The position numbers and the translations under genes are program-made. The notes under the pieces are model-generated. The model worked only from the letters and a program-made list of their open reading frames with translations, did no database searches and was not told the DNA's origin. Below, piece by piece: positions 1 to 27,989 of a DNA stretch of 35,746 bases (position 1 is the first letter of the stretch; each line of letters begins with the position of its first letter). Source of the DNA: Leptolyngbyaceae cyanobacterium MO_188.B28 (GTDB lineage: Bacteria > Cyanobacteriota > Cyanobacteriia > Phormidesmidales > Phormidesmidaceae); the NCBI GenBank assembly GCA_030065175.1, contig JASJDH010000010.1, positions 1 to 35,746 on the forward strand. Reading direction: 5' to 3'.

Positions 1-1314
1 CTGCTTTGGGGTGTTTTATTGAGTACTCACCCGCCCGCCATCACCAGCTATCTGAATGCCCTGGGGCTAGGAGAAGGCTACTATTCTCAGGCGCTCCATT
101 GGTTTCACTCCAGCGCCTTCAGCATCGATACCTTGTGTTATCGCTGGGGATATTGGCTGAGGGAACATCCCAACGCTCGTCGATTGAAGGGTCGCCCTGT
201 CTATGTCGGGGATGGCGTCAAAGTCGCAAAAGAAGGGCGAAAGATGCCTGGAGTCAAGGGACTCCATCAAGAGTCGGAAGATGTCAGCAAGCCGAAATGG
301 ATCCGAGGACACTACTTCAGCGCCTTGGCCCTGCTATTGGGGGCGGGAGAGGCGCTGTTCGCCGCCCCGATAGGACTGAAACTGCATGACGGGATTGAGG
401 CGGTTGATGCAAAGGCTGACGCCACCGTGGTGGAGAAAATGGCGACCCTGTGTGTCCAGATGATGGTTCAGGGCGGCTATGCTGTCCTAGATGCTTACTT
501 TGCTTCAGCCAAAGTCTTGAAACCATTTCGAGCGCATGGGGTGCATCTGATTAGTCGGGCTAGGATTACAACGGTGGGTCATGCCGCTTTTAGTCGTCGA
601 CCGGGAAAGCATGGCCAGGGACGTCATCGGGAATGGGGCAGTGAGGTCAAATTACGAGAGTTGTTCGCCCCGATTGAGGACTGCGCCGATGCCTCGATTT
701 GGCTGTACGGTCAATACAGGACGGTGTACTACCAATGCTTCGAGTTTTACTGGGATAGCGCCGATGAGTTGGTCTTGTTTGTGTTGACTCAACTCCCTAG
801 TGGAAAGCAGATTATTTTACTCTCTAGCGATGTGACCTTAACGGGAGCCGAAGTGATTGAGGCTTATGGCTGGCGATTCAAAATTGAGGTCAGCTTCCGC
901 ACACTGATTCAACTACTAGGTGGATTTTGCTATCGGTTTTGGCTCAAATCTATGGAAACCGCCTCGAAATGGCCTGATGATTTATCTTTGGCAGACTATT
1001 GTGAAGAGTTTCAACGAGAAGTGACTCGTAAGGTGGAAGCTTTTGAGCGCTTTGTCAATCTCAATGCGATTGCATTAGGTCTACTCCAAGTGCTGGCGCT
1101 AGAAATGCCCCATCATGTTTGGGCGCACTTTCCTCGCTGGTTTCGCACCTTACCCAAGCATGGTTATCCGAGCGAACAGATTGTCCGACTCTCACTCCAA
1201 AATCAACAAGAGATGAATTTATCCCAAAGTATGCCTACTCTACTTTTAACAAAATTACTCGACGATAAACATAAGTCGCTCAAAGAGCCTGATAAAGCTA
1301 CCTTGGCGGCCTGA
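1..1314 (+). CDS. DDE transposase (IS4/IS701-like superfamily), probably 5'-truncated by the window edge
   Basis: 431-aa ORF with transposase-like blocks VGDGVKVAKEGRKMPGVKGLHQES, VLDAYFAS and EAYGWRFKIEVSFRTLIQLLGGFCYRFW. The frame stays open upstream of the called start to base 1 (LLWGVLLSTHPP...). Confidence 0.75.
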   Translation: MLWGVLLSTHPPAITSYLNALGLGEGYYSQALHWFHSSAFSIDTLCYRWGYWLREHPNARRLKGRPVYVGDGVKVAKEGRKMPGVKGLHQESEDVSKPKWIRGHYFSALALLLGAGEALFAAPIGLKLHDGIEAVDAKADATVVEKMATLCVQMMVQGGYAVLDAYFASAKVLKPFRAHGVHLISRARITTVGHAAFSRRPGKHGQGRHREWGSEVKLRELFAPIEDCADASIWLYGQYRTVYYQCFEFYWDSADELVLFVLTQLPSGKQIILLSSDVTLTGAEVIEAYGWRFKIEVSFRTLIQLLGGFCYRFWLKSMETASKWPDDLSLADYCEEFQREVTRKVEAFERFVNLNAIALGLLQVLALEMPHHVWAHFPRWFRTLPKHGYPSEQIVRLSLQNQQEMNLSQSMPTLLLTKLLDDKHKSLKEPDKATLAA

Positions 1315-2646: not shown

Positions 2647-3160
2647 TTACTCTATGGGGGAAATTGTCAGAACTGACTCTTCAAATCTCACATTTGTGGT
2701 AAAGAGGCATCTCTCCCTCTTCTTTTCTCCTCTAAGCCGCCTCAAATATCTCTTGCAACGCATCAACTCGCTGTAGAAAGTGTTCTCGTCGATCGGAGAG
2801 AGATACGAATTCCGCCATTCACTGACGCGGTCGGAAGAACTGATGCACCTCATCAAACGCTTGACAGAAACGTTTGGCCGACTCAAAGGCGCCAAAGCCA
2901 AGGGTTGGATAGTAGCGTTGCTTGATGGCCTGGTGACTTTGCTCAATCGGATTGCCAAGCAAGAGATAACCGCGTGCTTTACTTCAGCTCCCAGACCTTC
3001 TTTAATGGCCCGAGGATAGGAGTTGAGTCCATCAGTGAACACTTGTTCTGGAGAAACATCGGCACCCGCTTGAGCTTGTTGAAAGAAGGCTTTAGCCGCC
3101 TCCATATCTCGCGTCTCACTGAGTCTGACATCCACCAAGAAAGATTGGGACTAAGGGTCG
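2647..3160 (-). pseudogene. IS6-like transposase C-terminal remnant, frameshifted
   Basis: FLVDVRLSETRDMEAAKAFFQQAQAGADVSPEQVFTDGLNSYPRAIKEGLGAEVKH in one frame; NPIEQSHQAIKQRYYPTLGFGAFESAKRFCQAFDEV..FRR in another. In-frame TAG just upstream of SQSFLVDV; N-terminal half absent. Confidence 0.8.
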
Positions 3161-3216
3161 CCCGTCTTTGAGACGGTCCCACTCAATAAGCCACCAGCTT
3201 TGCTGGTAGTGCGCTG
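3150..3216 (+). mobile_element. Solo IS200/IS605 right-end remnant
   Basis: CCCGTCTTTGAGACGGTCCCACTCAATAAGCCACCAGCTTTGCTGGTAGTG closely matches the intact IS200 right end at ~30938-30992 (CCGCCTTTGAGGCGGTCACATTCATTAAGCCACCGGCTTTGCCGGGGGTG). Confidence 0.75.
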
Positions 3217-5399
3217 ACTGTCAGTTTCTTCTTGGCGTAAAGGAACTCCTGTTTTGGCTGACAAACAGGGATCTGAATCACGAACTCTGCTCCCTGTCCT
3301 TGAGAAGATAAACAACACAGTTTGCCGCCATGTTTTTCAACAATAATTTTATAGCTGATAGAGAGTCCCATGCCGGTCCCTTTACCAACCTCTTTAGTTG
3401 TGAAAAAAGGATCAAAGATGTTTTTCTGGATATCTGCTGGAATGCCTGGACCATTATCAGAGATTGCGATTTGGACCCACTCCGAATCGATTGCTGAGGT
3501 ACGAATTATAATTTGATTAGGATTCTCTCTAATTTCTTGAAACGTGCGGTTTTTGTTGGCTAATTCCAAAGCATCAATGCCGTTGGCGAGGAGGTTCATC
3601 AATACCTGGTTGAGTTGACCAGGATAGCATTCGACCATAGGTAAATCTCCATACTCTTGGATTACCTCAATCGCCGGACGGTGTGATTTGCCCTTGAGCC
3701 GATGCTGGAGAATCATTAAGGTCCCTTCAATCCCTTCGTGAATATCAACGGTCTTAAATTCCGCTTCATCCATGCGGGAGAAATTTCGTAGCGACAGCAC
3801 AATCTGACGGATGCGATCAGTGCCGACTTTCATGGATTGAATCATGTCAATCAAATCTTGCTGCAAAAACGCTAGTTCAATGTCCTCAGCCTCAGCCTGG
3901 ATTTCGGGAACAGGCTGAGGATAATGTGTTTGATAAAGTTGTAGAAAATCTAATAACTCCTGAGCGTACTCCTGCACATGCTTGAGATTGCCGTGAATAA
4001 AGTTGACCGGATTATTAATTTCATGGGCAATCCCAGCTACAAGTTGGCCCAAGGCCGACATTTTTTCATTTTGAACGAGTTGAAGTTGGATTTGGCGAAG
4101 TTCTTTTAATGTCAGCGAAAGTTTTTCTGTACGCTCTTCCAGACTCTGTCGAGCCTGGCTTAATTCCTGGGTATGATTGTCTGTCCATTCTAAAAGCTGG
4201 TTAAGAGAAGCTGCTAAGACACCGACTTCATCCTGGGTTTTTACGGGCATTTTGAGGGTAAAATCGGCTTGTTGAATAACCTGTTGCGTAACTTCCGTTA
4301 ATTTACTCAGGGGCGCTGTTCGCTGGCGCGCAAACTGAGAGGCGATCATCCAACTGATGGCGCCCAAGAATAGAAGCGCTCCACCGAAGAGCAAGAGCCA
4401 TTGACTTTCCAATGCGTAAATTTCATCCAGGTTGGCTGAGGTGATAATCAACCAATCTGTTTGTGGAACTTGAGCAAAGTTATATTGCTGATTGTCATAT
4501 TTCACAGAAGAAGATAAAGTTGTTGACGCCTCACTTTGATTGGCGTTCGCGCCTAGGTCCGACAGAGCTGCTTGCAAGACAGTCGGATCAACCAGTAAGT
4601 CGTGATTGGCGATCGCTCCCTGAGCTGTTACCGTTAAAATGACTTGGGGCTCAGACCCTGATTTAATGATTTGGAGCCGCTCAGATTTCTCCAGAAGTAG
4701 ATTTTCCAACCCGTTTGCTAAGATATTCAGGTTTTTGGCGTCATAGCCTCCCTTTAAAATACCTAAGACTTCCTGAGTGCTCGGATCCTCTATGGCGTAG
4801 ATTATGTCGACCGTGACCGTCTGACTAGACTCGTCATACTCAGGTTCACCGATCCACAGGCCTTGAGCGTTGCCAGTTCGCCACCAATCTTCATCTCGCT
4901 GCACAAAGTCACTGGTGATTTGCGAATAGGCAACGTTGAACCCATACTTTTCAGTCATGAATAACTCGGCAAACCCCCCAACTTCGGCGATTTGCTGTAG
5001 ATACTCAGTCAAGCTGTCATCTGTTTGCAGTACTTTAGTCGCTGCAAATTGGGCTTCCACCTGGTCAATAGGTTGATGATGAAGATTTTCTGCTTCGACT
5101 CTCTCAGTAGCTGAGCGAGCTGCTGATTGAATGAGCGGATTAATAGCCGTGGTTTTGAGCGAGGATAGCGCTTCTTCGAGTTCTCGATGCGTCAGTTCTG
5201 CAGCAAAGATAGATCTCTCATACAATTTAATGTTTGCTTGTTGTGTGGTCAGCCGGTAGATAAAGACTGCGCCTAGCCCGCCTAGAATGGTGAGCGGAAC
5301 TAACGTAATCGGAAGAAAAGTCTTCAGAAGTCTTTGGCGGAGGGGGTAAACGACTTGAGGAACTTTTTCTAAAAAGCCCTTTTGCGCTGGTTCCTGCAT
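3183..5399 (-). CDS. Sensor histidine kinase, dCache-like periplasmic domain + HAMP + HisKA/HATPase
   Basis: 738 aa; N-terminal TM, about 300-aa extracytoplasmic region, second TM ([19 protein letters not shown]), HAMP-like region, H-box [13 protein letters not shown]-box [11 protein letters not shown]1 DNGPGIP, G2 GKGTGMGLS. Confidence 0.9.
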
Positions 5400-6621: not shown

Positions 6622-7480
6622 GTGCGATTCGTTTAGCTGGAAAGTCGATCCCTCAAGGATTGACGTGCAGCTAGCGAGGTTCAAAAGAACCTTGACAACT
6701 CAGAGGTCGGATCAGTAACCCCTGGACTTCATATCCAAGGGAGAGCCTGACTGGTCGAGCATAGACCCAGCACCTGCACCCCTGCGGTAGCGACTGAGCA
6801 TCAATCCGTAAAGCGGGGTGAAACGGACGGGAACTCTTAGATTCCAAAGAATTCCCCACCAAGGTGAGCTGACAAGGCTAGGAGACAAACCTATGTCCGA
6901 ACCGTCGTTATGCAACTGAGGGGAAATGGAGTCTGACACCCCTCGTCCAAAATGGACTTGGTGATTCTCAATGAGGCTAGCGAACCTCATCGGAGTGCGA
7001 CCATATCACCCGGCGGAAAGTAGGAGCCTAAATCAGCCCAAATGCCCGACTTCTGGGAACGAAGTAACTCCTCAAGAACATCCTTCAGAAACCTTCTGGG
7101 ACTCTGAAGTAACCAACTCACGGCGCATGTGTTCAGAGGAGAAGGATTGTGTAAGAAGCCAACGCCGTTGGGAAAGCCAGCGGATATGCTGACGTACACA
7201 CTGCTGTCGAGGCAAGTTTCAATGTTGGAGGATAACATGACGGAGTCTGTCAATCAGATATCTGATGCCTGGATAACAGTTAACTGGCCTCAGGCCAGCG
7301 TACTGTGTTCCGCCTCCAGCAGCGAATCTATCGCGCCTCACAACGGGGTGATGCCTCAGGGCTATTGCCCAATCTGCCCCTGAAGTGGGGAAGAGGTAGG
7401 AGAGGAGTCGTGTGAAGGAAAACTTTCAGGCACGATTCTGAAGGCGGGCGGGTCTTCGTGAGAGGACTCGCCTAGCCAAC
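6622..7480 (+). mobile_element. ORF-deleted group II intron (859 nt)
   Basis: 5' GTGCGATTCG; EBS2 TGCAAC (6911-6916) pairs with IBS2 GTTGCA (6608-6613); EBS1 AGCGAA in the loop of ATGAGG-CTAGCGAA-CCTCAT (6971-6990); 34-nt domain V GAGTCGTGTGAAGGAAAACTTTCAGGCACGATTC (7405-7438); domain VI with candidate branch A at 7474; 3' end AAC. Confidence 0.88.
7237..7404 (+). pseudogene. Remnant N-terminus of the group II intron-encoded protein
   Basis: MTESVNQISDAWITVNW in one frame, then RLQQRIYRASQRGD in a shifted frame, like the start of cyanobacterial intron RT/maturases. No RT domain follows. Confidence 0.65.
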
Positions 7481-7599
7481 TCATCTGACCTATCTTGCAT
7501 TGTAGAATGCACGCTCTTTCATTGCCGGGTTAATAGTCCACAATGCTTCCAAAGAAATCTGGCAAAGACGAAGCTATCTAATTAGATTCTGGAAAATCA

Positions 7600-9450
7600 A
7601 TGTCTTGGCCCATTTACACTCTTGAAACCGCCTCTGAAGACTCTCAAGCATCCTTAATCCAAGCACAAGAGACCTTTGGGTTTATCCCAAATGTAGAAGC
7701 GGTTTCTGCTGAAGCCTCTACCCTTTTGAAGGGAGGGATGGCGTTATGGGAGCTTTTCAGCACAACCAGTTTTACCCTGATTGAGCAACAGGTTATTTAT
7801 CTAACTATTAACTTTGAGCATAATTGTCACTACTGTATGGCGGTCCATACTGCCTTGGCAGGGACAGTTGAGATGCCTGTTGAAGATATTCAAGCATTAC
7901 GAGATGGTACACCTCTTAAAGATCCTAAGCTGCAAGCCCTAAGGCAGTTTACCCAACGAATGGTTGCGACCAGAGGCTGGGTCACTCAGGCTGAAATTTC
8001 AGCTTTTATGACCCATGGCTATACAAAACAACAAGTGTTTGAGGTGATTTTGGGAATTGCCATGAAGGTGATTCACAACTACACCAATCACATTGCCGAA
8101 ACGCCTTTGGATGATGTCTTTCAGTCTTATGCTTGGTCACGTCCGCCTCACATTTGGACGGATCAGCAACTCCAACTCATCTTTGATAATCTCCCTCAAC
8201 AAACATGCTGGAAAAATAGAAACCTCGAATATGTCGGCTGTAACCAACACTTTGCAGAGGCTATAGGCCTGACAGCGCCTCATCAAATTATGGGGAAAGC
8301 GGATGAAGATATTGACTGGAAGGAATTAGTTCAGCCGGATAAATCAGAGGATCAAGCCATTCTGGAAAGCGGGATTCCCCTTAATGTAGAAAAATCACAG
8401 ATTAAGCCCGATGGAACAATCCAATGGCTAAACATCCGCAGAATTCCCCTGCATGACCAAGCAGGCAAGGTAATTGGGCTGTTTTACTCCTATGAGGACA
8501 TTACTGAACGCAAACAAGCCGCCCTTGCGCTCCAGGCAGCAAACAGCAGACTCATGTCGCAGGCGGCGGAATTAACCTCAGCTCTAGAACAATTACAACA
8601 GTATCAATTACAACTGATACAGAGTGAAAAAATGTCCGCGCTAGGCAATTTGGTGGCCGGTGTCGCTCATGAAATTAATAATCCAATAGGCTTCTTAGAA
8701 GGGAATCTTATTCCAGCCCAGGAATATGCGAATGATTTATTAGGCTTACTTGATCTCTATCAAGAAACCTTTCCACAACCTGGCGACACAATTGAAAAAG
8801 AAATTGAGACCATTGACCTTGAATTTCTTCGAACCGATCTGCCTCAGTTGCTAAAATCTATGAAGCTCGGGGTAGAGCGGATTAAAAGTATCAGTACCAG
8901 CCTACGCACATTCTCTCGGGCTGACAAAAACGATAAAACCTTGTTTAACGTTCATGAGGGCCTCGACAGCACCCTTTTGATTCTTCGGCATCGCCTCAAG
9001 GCCAATGAGACGCGCCCCGCCATTGAAGTCATAACAGACTATGCTGATCTGCCCCCCATAAAGTGCTTCCCCAGTCAGCTAAATCAGGTATTTATGAACA
9101 TTCTCGCCAATGCCATTGACGCACTGGAAGAGAACAGTAAGGGTAAATCGTTTCAGGAAATTAAAGCACACCCAAACCAGATTGAAATTAAAACTGAACT
9201 ATCAAACAATCAGGTTGTGATTTACATCCGTGATAATGGCGTGGGTATGACTGATGAGGTAAGACATCAGATTTTTGACCACTTGTACACTACCAAGGAC
9301 ATAGGTCAGGGAACAGGGTTAGGATTGACGATCTCACGCCAAATCATTCTTGAAAAACATGGCGGCCAAATCGAAGCTCACTCTCCCTCCGGAAAAGGGA
9401 CAAAGTTCGTAATCTCACTCCCCATCAAAGATAAGCTGCTAAGCGTGTAA
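7600..9450 (+). CDS. Hybrid AhpD/carboxymuconolactone-decarboxylase-like domain + PAS + histidine kinase
   Basis: 616 aa in one uninterrupted frame: residues ~1-185 AhpD/CMD-like with CHYCMAVH (CxxCxxxH); PAS/PAC (DNLPQQTCWKNRNLEYVGCN...GLFYSYEDITERKQ); H-box GVAHEINNPIGF, N-box NILANAIDAL, G1 DNGVGMT, G2 GQGTGLGLT. Confidence 0.9.
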   Translation: MSWPIYTLETASEDSQASLIQAQETFGFIPNVEAVSAEASTLLKGGMALWELFSTTSFTLIEQQVIYLTINFEHNCHYCMAVHTALAGTVEMPVEDIQALRDGTPLKDPKLQALRQFTQRMVATRGWVTQAEISAFMTHGYTKQQVFEVILGIAMKVIHNYTNHIAETPLDDVFQSYAWSRPPHIWTDQQLQLIFDNLPQQTCWKNRNLEYVGCNQHFAEAIGLTAPHQIMGKADEDIDWKELVQPDKSEDQAILESGIPLNVEKSQIKPDGTIQWLNIRRIPLHDQAGKVIGLFYSYEDITERKQAALALQAANSRLMSQAAELTSALEQLQQYQLQLIQSEKMSALGNLVAGVAHEINNPIGFLEGNLIPAQEYANDLLGLLDLYQETFPQPGDTIEKEIETIDLEFLRTDLPQLLKSMKLGVERIKSISTSLRTFSRADKNDKTLFNVHEGLDSTLLILRHRLKANETRPAIEVITDYADLPPIKCFPSQLNQVFMNILANAIDALEENSKGKSFQEIKAHPNQIEIKTELSNNQVVIYIRDNGVGMTDEVRHQIFDHLYTTKDIGQGTGLGLTISRQIILEKHGGQIEAHSPSGKGTKFVISLPIKDKLLSV

Positions 9451-9937: not shown

Positions 9938-10501
9938 TTAGGCCGTTATTAGAGTAGAAAGGCGCTTTAAGTTAAAGGCAATGCATACCAATGTCCACTC
10001 ACCCCTGACGGCATTGATCCCACGCAGCATGAAGTGACGGAATCCCATCACCTCTTTGATAATGCCAAATACGGGTTCAACGGTCGATTTGCGCTTGGCA
10101 TAGAATGCTTTACCGGCTTCAGTGCTGAGTCGATGCTTCATCGCAGCGACGACATCAGGATTCTCAGGGGGAGTGGCTTCGGGGGCCAGTCGTTCTTCCA
10201 GCGTTAGATTATGGCTCTGTCGGCCTGCTGCAATATAGGCTTCAATTCCATTTTCCTGGAGTTTTTTGGCATTGTCCTCACTGAAATATCCCGCATCCAA
10301 CGCCGCCCGTTTCACCTTCCCCAATGCATCGGGCAACTCATTGAGTTGGGCCAATGCAGGCTCGACTTCCTGCTGATCATTGGGCTGTTGACTCACATGC
10401 ATGCCGACAATCAGCATCTTGTCCATATCCACCGACGCTTGGGCATTGTAGGCTTGCTCAAATCCCCCCCCCTGAAACTGGCATAATGCGCGAATCTTCA
10501 T
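9938..10501 (-). CDS. IS1182-like transposase, C-terminal part (shifted frame)
   Basis: GGGFEQAYNAQASVDMDKMLIVG...ALDAGYFSEDNAKKL...FYAKRKSTVEPVFGIIKEVMGFRHFMLRG; continues the upstream ORF across the homopolymer. Confidence 0.85.
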   Translation of the reverse strand: MKIRALCQFQGGGFEQAYNAQASVDMDKMLIVGMHVSQQPNDQQEVEPALAQLNELPDALGKVKRAALDAGYFSEDNAKKLQENGIEAYIAAGRQSHNLTLEERLAPEATPPENPDVVAAMKHRLSTEAGKAFYAKRKSTVEPVFGIIKEVMGFRHFMLRGINAVRGEWTLVCIAFNLKRLSTLITA

Positions 10502-11306
10502 CGGTAAAATTCACTTGGTCACTGGCCTTGGGACCCGACTCAGGCGCTTTAGGTTTGCGCCCTCCCAACTTGTGTCCTTGGGCCTCTTCCTTGGCCGCCC
10601 GCACTTTTAATTTCGCCTCATACTCGGCTTGTTCCTGCTCGTATCTAGCTTTCGCACGGGCTTCTATTTCCGCTTTCACCTGAGCGATGCACGCTAATCG
10701 CTCTTGACGACGTTGGATTTCATCGGGAATATCAATGTCCTTAGTCTGCTTACCTTTCCCTTCCGCCGCTGCCTCCGCCTTTGCCAGCAGCACTTCTACC
10801 TCTGCCTGCAGTTGCCTTTCAAGTCGATTGGCATACTCCCAACTCAACGCTTTATGTTTGCTCGCGTTCGCCGCCATCTTCGTACCATCAATACTGATAT
10901 CGCCCAGCTTAAAGATGCCCAGCCTGCAGGCATACGACAAGATCTGCACAAACAAGGGCTTTAACGGGTCTAAAAATCGCTGGCGAAAGCCATTGATGCT
11001 TGAATGGTCGGGGTGAGCGCCGCCGCTGATGTAGAGTATCGGAATTAATTCATAGGTGGCTTCCTCGATCTTGCGACTGGAAAAGATCCCCTTCGCATAG
11101 CAGTAAAACAACAGGCTCAGCATCATTTTGGGCGGATAAGGGCGACTTCCTCCGCCCTTGTAGGAGTCTTCTATTTCGTCGGTATCTAGTTGCTCCACCA
11201 CATCGACGACAAAACGCGCAAGGCTATTGCTATCTAGCCATCCCTCCATGTTGCTGGGAAGGGTAATGGGCACACTTCTATCGATTTCGATAAATTTATT
11301 GCTCAT
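10458..11306 (-). CDS. IS1182-like transposase, N-terminal part
   Basis: MSNKFIEIDRSVPITLPSNMEGWL...SRPYPPKMMLSLLFYCYAKGIFSSRKIEEA...HPDHSSINGFRQRF...ISIDGTKMAANASKHKALS; ends at a G9 tract. Confidence 0.85.
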   Translation of the reverse strand: MSNKFIEIDRSVPITLPSNMEGWLDSNSLARFVVDVVEQLDTDEIEDSYKGGGSRPYPPKMMLSLLFYCYAKGIFSSRKIEEATYELIPILYISGGAHPDHSSINGFRQRFLDPLKPLFVQILSYACRLGIFKLGDISIDGTKMAANASKHKALSWEYANRLERQLQAEVEVLLAKAEAAAEGKGKQTKDIDIPDEIQRRQERLACIAQVKAEIEARAKARYEQEQAEYEAKLKVRAAKEEAQGHKLGGRKPKAPESGPKASDQVNFTDEDSRIMPVSGGGI

Positions 11307-11810: not shown

Positions 11811-12740
11811 TTGCTATACCGAGCCATGACCTCGATCAGCTCTCCAACTACTGCTAACAACAGATATTCCCAAAAGCCGAGAATGCTTGTGGTTGATGAT
11901 GAACCCGACAATCTCGATACGCTTTATCGCATCTTTCGACGTAAATATCAGGTTTTGAGAGCTGCTAGCGGTGTTGAGGCTCTAGAAATACTAGACGCAG
12001 AAGGAGAGGTCGCCGTAATTCTCTCTGACCAGCGCATGCCTTTGATGAAAGGTACAGAATTCCTCAGCAAAACCGTGTCTTCCTTCCCGAATACGGTTCG
12101 CATCATTTTGACCGGGTTTACCGATGTTGAAGACCTGGTCGAAGCCATTAACGCCGGTCAAGTCTATCGCTATATCACGAAACCCTGGGACACAGAAGAG
12201 CTGAGCCGCATCATCCAAAAAGCGACCGAAACTTACGACCTCCTTAAGCAAAGAAATGAAGAGCTACAGCACACTGAAAAGCAGATTAAGCTGGCTGCCA
12301 CCGTCGCCCAATCCGCCATACAGCGGCTGTCGCCGGATGCGATTCTACAGCTGATTACAAATGGGGTGAGTCACATACTTGGCGCCGATATCTGCGCCCT
12401 GGCCACCCTAAACGAGGGAGCTATCGAAGCCGTCACCTTGACCGGGGATTTACCTGACGCCCCGGCGCTGCTCAGTCAAAATTGTTTAGTCCGACAGGCG
12501 ATCTCCTCTCAATCTCTACAAACAGCAACCGTTGCTGCCGATCCAACCCTTGACCAAGAGGCTCTCTATCAGGCAGTTGACACTCAATCCCATTTAGTCG
12601 CGCCGATTCTCTATCAGGGCGAACTGATTGCTGTTTTATCGCTACAGTGGTCTCTCGTCTATGACGACTTATACAAGGTGAGGCAGATGATGGGCCTCTT
12701 GGCTGCCCAGGTTGCGCTTGCAATGGCGAATGTCGCTTAA
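11811..12740 (+). CDS. Response regulator with REC receiver and C-terminal GAF domain
   Basis: MLVVDDEPDNLDTLYRIF...VILSDQRMPLMKGTEFL...RIILTGFTD...YRYITKPWD, then a GAF-like region (IQRLSPDAILQLITNGVSHILGADICALATL...). Confidence 0.88.
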   Translation: MLYRAMTSISSPTTANNRYSQKPRMLVVDDEPDNLDTLYRIFRRKYQVLRAASGVEALEILDAEGEVAVILSDQRMPLMKGTEFLSKTVSSFPNTVRIILTGFTDVEDLVEAINAGQVYRYITKPWDTEELSRIIQKATETYDLLKQRNEELQHTEKQIKLAATVAQSAIQRLSPDAILQLITNGVSHILGADICALATLNEGAIEAVTLTGDLPDAPALLSQNCLVRQAISSQSLQTATVAADPTLDQEALYQAVDTQSHLVAPILYQGELIAVLSLQWSLVYDDLYKVRQMMGLLAAQVALAMANVA

Positions 12741-17448: not shown

Positions 17449-17590
17449 TTAACGCTCTTCAAGCACTCTGAAGGGATAAAATCTGAAACGCCGGTTTCTC
17501 GTTAGCAATCCCTCCAATTGACAGGCCATGAAGCACGTAAAATGGTCGTTTCAAACATTCTCTAGAGACTTTGACAGAAGAGCGTTAAGT
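17449..17590. repeat. MITE-like element with TTAACGCTCTTC termini
   Basis: GATTAACGCTCTTCAAGCACTCT at left; GACTTTGACAGAAGAGCGTTAAG inverted at right. Confidence 0.45.
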
Positions 17591-17916
17591 GGTCATGCAA
17601 AACTGTTTACACATGAAATCCGCCGAAAGCACTTTACTGGCATGAGTCACTTTGAAAATAATTTTGCCGAAGCACTTACTTGTGATCTCAGCCTCATTGC
17701 ACATCTCGTGGAGGTTAAAACGTTAGATAGCATATTAATCAACATGAACCAACGCACCGCCAGCAGAGATCGCACCCCATTCCCAAAATCCACAACTCAT
17801 TCTCACAGTCACACCCCAACAGCGCGACCTACTCGACTGCGCTCACCCATAATGCTTTCCCTACATTGATTTGGGCTAATATATCGATGTCAAAGCTAAA
17901 AAGATTCTCTTTGCCC

Positions 17917-26063: not shown

Positions 26064-27989
26064 CTACTGCTGGTGGATGGGAATCTCAATGGAGAACTCA
26101 GTCCCTTGACTGGGGGTTGAAGCGCAAGTTAACGTTCCCTGATGTTTATCCACAACAATTTGATAGCTGATCGACAACCCTAAGCCGGTTCCCTTCCCCA
26201 CGGGTTTGGTGGTAAAGAAGGGATTGAATAACTGCGACTTAATCTTTTCCTCAATCCCTGAGCCATTATCCTCAATGCGAATGGCTATTCGAGTATCCTG
26301 GGAAGTCCCTCGATCCCCCCCTTCCAGTACTTCAGTCCGAATCCGGATACAGGGTGGGGGGAGCGGAGGGGGAGGCGTGAGCGTGGCGGCGGTGTAAACG
26401 GGGAGTACGGAGGCGTTGATTTGAGACTGAGCGGAGCGGTTGGAACCGTTAGGTAGAACGTGTTTATCGCCGATCATAGCTGTCTCTACGCCTTTTATCT
26501 GCACTGGCCTATTCGTCCTCGTTTTTTCTAAAGCGTCAATTGCATTACTCAGAATATTCATGAAAACCTGGTTGAGCTGAGAGGGGTAACATTCCACCAA
26601 CGGTAAATCGCCATACTCCCTAATCACCTCAATCGCCGAATAACCCTGCCTTGCTTTCAGACGATGCTTCAAGAGAAGTAAAGTGCTATCAATGCCCTCA
26701 TGAATATCCACAGATTTTAGATCTGACTGATCCAAGCGGGAAAAATTTCTGAGGGACAGGACGATTTCTCTAATCCGCTCAGCCCCAATCTGCATGGACC
26801 CCAATAATTTCTGCAGATCTTCAACCAGAAAGTCTAATTCCATGGTCTGCTGCAGAGCCTGAATTTCAGGGTTAGGGGTAGGATACGTCTTTTGATAAAG
26901 ATGAATCAACTCCAGTAGGTCTTGGAAGTATGCTTGCGCAGGCCGGAGATTGCTATAGATGAAGCTGACTGGATTATTTATTTCATGGGCGACCCCTGCA
27001 ACCATTTGACCCAGCCCAGACATTTTTTCAGCTTGAACCAATTGAGATTGGGTTGTTTGCAGTGTCTTGAGCGCTTGGGTTAACTTTTGTGATTTGGCTC
27101 GTTCACTGGCTTCGCTATCTCGCAGGGCCATTTCCACTTGTTTACGCCGCTCAAAAACGAAACCAAAGGTGGTTGACAGAAATCCGATTTCATTTGTGGG
27201 CATTGCCGCAGGCGGATCAAAGCCCCCGTTCTCTTTACTGGATATGACAGCTTGATGGAGGCGATTTAGCGGCCCCAAAACAACCCTTTGAATCAATATC
27301 CCTATCACTAAAAGGATGACGACATTCCCGGCGAGTAGAGTCAAGATTGTGGTCCAAAAAGTCCGCCAGACTTTTCGGCGAATGCGGTTGAGGTCCAGGA
27401 TGGCGATCACTAGTCCCCGCCGTCCTTGCATCTCAAACAAAACACTGCTGAAGGGCATCAGTTGGGCCAGAACAGGTTTCCCATCCAAAATCATTTGGAG
27501 GGAATCCTCAACACCGCTGCTAGCCGCTTGTTCTAAGGCTAAGGCCAACTCAGGGTGTAAGGCGGTGTAACGAGAGTTGTTCAGTGCCTGTGAGCTGTGG
27601 GCTAGGGTCAAATAGTCAGGGGTGACAATGGCAATCTCATCCACCGCTGGTAAGGTAGCGTAATTTTCCACCACCCGTTGCAGCATGCTGGTGTAGCCAA
27701 CTTCAATCGGGCCTTCTGTAGCAAACTCTAGACCTTGAGTAATGGACTGAGCGTGTTCGACTACCTGCTTTTCTAAGCCAGTTTGAATCAAGCGAAAACT
27801 GCCCCAAGCCATCGTCAGCCCGACCGTAGTAAGAGCGGCCCCAAACCCAATCAGGAGTTGTTTGGATAGACTTAACTTAACTGGAAATGCTTCAGATCCG
27901 TTACTAATATCCTCAAACTTCAGAAATTTTCTTTCAAAGACCCTACCAATAGAGTGGCTATCAAATAGTCGATAAAATCTACTTTGCAT
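26064..27989 (-). CDS. Sensor histidine kinase with a single periplasmic domain + HAMP
   Basis: Two TM segments flanking ~150 aa; H-box [13 protein letters not shown]-box NILSNAIDAL, G1 DNGSGIEE, G2 GKGTGLGLS; long low-complexity insert TLTPPPPLPPPC before G1. Confidence 0.92.
   Translation of the reverse strand: MQSRFYRLFDSHSIGRVFERKFLKFEDISNGSEAFPVKLSLSKQLLIGFGAALTTVGLTMAWGSFRLIQTGLEKQVVEHAQSITQGLEFATEGPIEVGYTSMLQRVVENYATLPAVDEIAIVTPDYLTLAHSSQALNNSRYTALHPELALALEQAASSGVEDSLQMILDGKPVLAQLMPFSSVLFEMQGRRGLVIAILDLNRIRRKVWRTFWTTILTLLAGNVVILLVIGILIQRVVLGPLNRLHQAVISSKENGGFDPPAAMPTNEIGFLSTTFGFVFERRKQVEMALRDSEASERAKSQKLTQALKTLQTTQSQLVQAEKMSGLGQMVAGVAHEINNPVSFIYSNLRPAQAYFQDLLELIHLYQKTYPTPNPEIQALQQTMELDFLVEDLQKLLGSMQIGAERIREIVLSLRNFSRLDQSDLKSVDIHEGIDSTLLLLKHRLKARQGYSAIEVIREYGDLPLVECYPSQLNQVFMNILSNAIDALEKTRTNRPVQIKGVETAMIGDKHVLPNGSNRSAQSQINASVLPVYTAATLTPPPPLPPPCIRIRTEVLEGGDRGTSQDTRIAIRIEDNGSGIEEKIKSQLFNPFFTTKPVGKGTGLGLSISYQIVVDKHQGTLTCASTPSQGTEFSIEIPIHQQ

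Follow-up and report, generated by a model that had tools for sequence, protein, structure and literature searches.

The catalytic relay of AhpD-like proteins consists of Glu, Cys, Tyr or His, Cys, and His (PMC3141380; also PMC4674687). A precedent for this fold in signaling is the stress and nutrient regulator Sestrin2, whose AhpD-like fold has peroxidase activity and carries reactive Cys, Tyr, and His residues (PMC4674687). It differs from the locus described here in being eukaryotic, in not being a kinase, and in having one Cys of the pair only (PMC4674687). The closest solved structures to the N-terminal module of this locus are the Streptococcus AhpD-like proteins 6e8l and 3lvy, with which the whole module aligns; these stand alone, keep the relay Glu, and read C-A-F-C in place of the module's C-H-Y-C. 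Another solved protein related to the module, Bmp8, is a debrominase.

The window, meaning the whole stretch of 35,746 nucleotides from Leptolyngbyaceae cyanobacterium MO_188.B28 that was analyzed, carries a gene in which a single ATG-initiated open reading frame without internal stops runs through an AhpD-like module, a PAS domain, and a HisKA/HATPase core (Table 1). A sequence-only reading of this DNA had described exactly such an uninterrupted 616-amino-acid frame, and the open reading frame, the Pfam matches, and the alignments with solved structures bear it out. The best mean hydropathy over 19 residues is 0.97, so the protein lacks a membrane segment. The PAS_4 and HATPase_c matches both exceed their Pfam cutoffs, and HisKA scores 20.6 bits, under its cutoff of 26.9, with a match over amino acids (aa) 348 to 409 that includes the HEINNP motif (His357). 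All kinase boxes are present (HEINNP, NQVFMN at 495, DNGVGM at 545, and GTGLGL at 571). With H, N, G1, and G2 boxes and a HATPase fold, the C-terminal half is thus predicted to be a sensor histidine kinase. In the AlphaFold model of the full protein, the PAS domain has a pLDDT of about 82 to 93 over most of its length, and an unbroken helix (aa 302 to 390) runs into the kinase core. The AhpD-like part of that model is poor; it was built from its own sequence, as the 2 CMD alignment rows mapped to the kinase half.

TABLE 1 Predicted features of the fused gene and their positions in the window
Feature	Position	Strand	Details
CMD(AhpD-like)-PAS-HisKA-HATPase sensor kinase	7600..9450	+	616 aa, soluble
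AhpD-like (peroxidase-related CMD) module, aa 1-183	7600..8148	+	6e8l match over aa 3-178, profile, Foldseek
Active-site hairpin E62...Q64...E73...C76-H-Y78-C79-x3-H83	7783..7848	+	Conservation in 19 relatives
Fusion junction/linker, identical placement in both copies	8149..8172	+	Alignment with stand-alone sisters
PAS domain, about aa 191-306	8170..8517	+	PAS_4 1.6e-12, AlphaFold model
Signaling helix and DHp	8518..8919	+	Phospho-acceptor His357 at 8668-8670 (HEINNP); modeled helix
HATPase_c domain, aa 492-610	9073..9429	+	3.4e-24; N, G1, G2 boxes

The module itself is recognized marginally by Pfam. CMD (PF02627) scores 19.0 bits on the full protein and 22.7 bits on the module alone, against a cutoff of 23; on a second copy of the gene, described below, it scores 24.3 bits in the genome search and 21.1 bits as a protein. 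The NCBIfam model TIGR01926, "peroxidase-related enzyme," matches the protein at 2.4e-13, under the model's own cutoff. Membership is secure despite the marginal Pfam score, because the module, ~180 aa long, can be aligned over its full length with AhpD-like proteins of solved structure (6e8l, 5.7e-29; 3lvy, 2.3e-27). A 19-sequence profile of relatives matches at 4.5e-52. An AlphaFold model had been proposed earlier as a check of the AhpD fold, and it answers in part: the model of the module alone is weak (pLDDT 65, from a 3-row alignment), although the top Foldseek matches of this low-confidence model are all AhpD-like, with 6e8l and 3lvy the best. Full-length homology and the predicted all-helical fold together place the module in the AhpD-like/CMD superfamily, in the peroxidase-related group, and its sequence assigns it to a sister group, not to AhpD proper.

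The motif CHYCMAVH, previously noted as a CxxCxxxH signature, is present at aa 76 to 83 (C76-H-Y-C79-x3-H83). Across 19 relatives from several phyla, E62, C76, Y78, C79, and H83 are invariant, and Glu73 is nearly so (16/19). Four of the five AhpD-like relay residues (relay as in PMC3141380) are thereby accounted for, by C76, Y78, C79, and H83. The Glu that serves the relay in AhpD (Mycobacterium tuberculosis type), located 12 residues ahead of the first Cys, is replaced by Gln64, and AhpD chemistry therefore cannot be assumed. Position 64 is Gln in 13 of the 19 relatives and Thr in the other 6, and both fused copies have Gln. As judged from these alignments, the fusion has retained the predicted active site of its own group unchanged. 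No experiment tying a member of the sister group to peroxide, and no assay of any member, was found in the literature searched. The genes next to stand-alone relatives encode oxidoreductases, hydrolases, a haloacid dehalogenase, and TetR or LysR regulators; such surroundings suggest small reactive molecules and do not single out peroxide.

Closest to the module are stand-alone cyanobacterial genes: those on the Acaryochloris marina plasmid pREC3 and the Gloeothece plasmid pP742401 (62 to 63% identity, over the module's whole length), one in genome G075 (62%), and those in G566 and G517 (64 to 65%). A TetR gene is divergent from the module gene in pREC3, pP742401, and G075. The two plasmid proteins, each a "carboxymuconolactone decarboxylase family protein," share C-x-Y-C-x3-H and a Gln at the relay Glu position with the fused module, but they are single-domain proteins of 185 to 200 aa without a kinase. 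In a tree, both fused modules fall into one group with three stand-alone modules from cyanobacteria (support, 99/97), and the fused pair is supported at 100/99. Two viral relatives, both stand-alone genes, show 36% identity; other scans returned no further viral relatives.

For the PAS-kinase half, the nearest relatives are compact coiled-coil-PAS-kinase proteins from other genera of the family (G044, G026, G036, and G017), with 55 to 58% identity over PAS and kinase. They differ in having an N-terminal coiled coil of ~60 aa before the PAS domain and no AhpD-like module. More distant relatives carry GAF, PAS, or other N termini at the same point. The AhpD-type domain thus does sit where a sensor belongs, as the sequence-only reading had put it: it occupies the point at which related kinases have interchangeable input domains. 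The stand-alone sister enzymes terminate just past ...YxWSKP, and both fused copies continue as ...WSRPP(H/Y)IWTDQQLQLIFDNLPQ into the PAS domain. Since the sister kinases have a coiled coil before PAS and the stand-alone enzymes end at the junction, the enzyme gene appears to have taken the place of the coil.

A second full-length copy, with 74% amino acid identity and the same architecture and junction, is present on contig C148 of the assembly containing the window (G000; 8.48 Mb in 650 contigs, with 83% completeness and 4.9% contamination). This intact, independently diverged copy rules out a sequencing or assembly error that joined two genes, which had been named earlier as a possible refutation, and the fusion is therefore not an artifact. 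DNA similarity between the two copies extends from 4 bases before the ATG to near the gene end. At a dS of about 1, dN/dS is 0.13 over the whole gene and 0.10 within the AhpD-like module; dS is saturated in the HATPase domain, whose dN/dS is not to be read closely. The module is the best-conserved part of the protein, with 81% amino acid identity against 72% for PAS, 72% for HisKA, and 71% for HATPase, and the active-site residues are all identical. These substitution rates show purifying selection on the AhpD-like module.

A third copy, on contig C458 (L105:5979-6266, -), is decayed; only about aa 77 to 150 of the module remain, flanked by ftsH and an ABC1-family kinase gene. Apart from this gene, contigs C148 and C458 are collinear, with 78 to 83% DNA identity, whereas C458 shows a higher identity (89%) to the only other genome of the genus. 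The assembly may therefore be a mixture of two related strains or contain a segmental duplication. The rpoB gene is single copy in the assembly. In either case, the fusion has been kept in two genes that evolve separately.

Searches with the module found no CMD-kinase fusion outside this assembly among 95 relatives or 63 genomes of the order, nor in two samples drawn evenly across cyanobacteria (386 and 388 genomes), these sets overlapping. Module matches elsewhere were open frames of at most 205 aa, save one fusion in G468 (L164:1787-3262; 491 aa in a 513-aa frame). The latter was rejected as a CMD-kinase: an alpha/beta hydrolase, assigned from reading the sequence and not from a profile search, is followed by a CMD domain that has lost CxxC (NAALYSVAVH). 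In a full-protein scan of 84,980 species genomes (GTDB), with two search peptides drawn from the module, none of the best 80 loci covers both module and kinase, and all match the kinase half. A relative of the module occurs in 461 plasmid records; the annotations listed for these include no fused kinase, and the 4 records in which one place covers at least 80% of the protein contain neighboring-gene pieces or weak kinase matches. Beyond cyanobacteria, the absence applies to the best 80 loci of the 84,980-genome scan and to the plasmids. The idea that separate CMD and kinase genes form a conserved operon was also rejected, as the two plasmid cases in which both genes fall within ~3 kb involve distant relatives (27 to 28%) next to unrelated kinases; in Caballeronia, the CMD gene lies more than 1 kb from a kinase gene of 5.5 kb. 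These comparisons show the fusion to be restricted to this assembly among the genomes searched, and no paper describing an AhpD-like/CMD-kinase protein was found in the open-access literature searched. The earlier suspicion that the architecture is nonstandard is supported: the searches with the module across cyanobacteria returned no other fusion in the order or in the 386- and 388-genome samples, and the counterargument that such fusions are common and characterized finds no example there or in the literature searched.

By conserved neighborhood, no cognate response regulator adjoins the second copy or the sister kinases. In the window, a REC-GAF gene (11811 to 12740) is cut off from the fused kinase by a transposase (9938 to 11306, -) made up of two overlapping frames, DUF772 and DDE. 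Further transposase genes or fragments lie at 19 to 1314 (+) and 2647 to 3138 (-). Directly upstream of the fused gene is a group II intron remnant (6640 to 7540; RF00029 match at 7403 to 7480, 47.3 bits) with the apparent first reverse transcriptase codons at ~7237 to 7290 and no full reverse transcriptase. It is essentially single copy in the genome and could affect transcription of the fused gene. A short interspersed repeat (17449 to 17678; about 140 to 230 bp), of which this genome and the genus's other one both carry many copies, is probably a miniature mobile element. The window also encodes two more kinases of the same group (3183 to 5399, -; 26064 to 27989, -), and a genome search with the protein listed 26 matches, nearly all kinase paralogues.

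Our main reading, to which we assign a probability of roughly one-half, is that the AhpD-like module has been captured as the input of the kinase, with its Cys pair reacting and the signal passing via PAS and helix to His357. A stand-alone gene for an AhpD-like oxidoreductase, belonging to a type that plasmids often carry, would have been fused in frame, nearly end to end, with the gene for a soluble PAS histidine kinase of cyanobacteria, the module replacing the N-terminal coiled coil of the parent kinase. The fused gene would later have been duplicated, or be carried by two related strains, and retained. The module would then most likely serve as the input domain: Cys76 and Cys79 would react with the parent enzyme's small reactive molecule (a hydroperoxide or another electrophile) to form a disulfide or intermediate, and the change would travel through PAS and the continuous helix (aa 302 to 390) to alter autophosphorylation at His357. 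The sensor role of the module, the cycling of its cysteines, and the direction of signaling are what we infer. This input-domain explanation gains from the two intact copies and the remnant, the conserved module with its invariant residues, the varied N termini of relatives at the same point, the grouping of the fused pair with stand-alone cyanobacterial enzymes, and Sestrin2. Gln64, the marginal Pfam CMD score, the absence of an adjacent regulator, and the weak module model count against it, as does the geometry of coupling, since AhpD-like proteins are often trimers or hexamers, whereas kinases are dimers (PMC3141380). A narrower form, which we put forward tentatively, is that a catalytically active AhpD-like enzyme acts directly as the kinase input. 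The kinase would then read either enzyme turnover or the oxidation state of the Cys pair and work as a cytoplasmic redox/electrophile sensor in a single cyanobacterial lineage. Of the peroxide or thiol-redox sensor suggested by the sequence-only reading, the full-length module, the retained Cys pair, Tyr, and His, the input position, and the rarity all stand, and peroxide or thiol-redox sensing as such is a fair hypothesis. The description "redox-responsive kinase" is plausible, with peroxide as one of several candidates alongside reactive electrophiles and other substrates.

The same conserved residues could be read differently. The module might still detoxify while the kinase listens via PAS, or it might only dimerize the kinase in the stead of the lost coil. 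Conservation of the full group-specific active site agrees with this, the module does stand in for the coiled coil of the sister kinases, and the fusion of the same CMD group to an alpha/beta hydrolase indicates that fusions need not be sensory. We nevertheless regard it as rather unlikely, given that the module occupies the position of exchangeable input domains and that a scaffold would need no strict active-site conservation. Retention of both Cys, Tyr78, and His83 in both copies at a dS of about 1 also weighs on the idea of a ligand-binding sensor without cysteine redox chemistry, in which a small molecule bound in the former substrate pocket gives an allosteric signal, because some of these residues should have been lost from a pure binding domain. 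Such a sensor would fit the replacement of the relay Glu by Gln64 and has a parallel in Sesn-C, the AhpD-like half of Sestrin2 without catalytic residues (PMC4674687), but we judge it unlikely. Least likely, and indeed very improbable, is a recent functionless fusion heading for decay: the third copy is already a remnant and the fusion occurs in one genome only among those searched, but two copies are intact, with dN/dS of 0.10 (module) and 0.13 (gene) at a dS of about 1.

On the domain evidence, the protein is a predicted sensor kinase of a known kind with a putative input domain found on no other kinase searched. Cyanobacteria have many orphan kinases whose inputs are to be found; here, the input end would come from a small enzyme family whose reactive site is defined, which makes a specific and cheap test possible (cysteine state versus autophosphorylation). 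The gene would also be a clear case of enzyme capture by a sensor kinase, in which relatives of both unfused parents can be identified.
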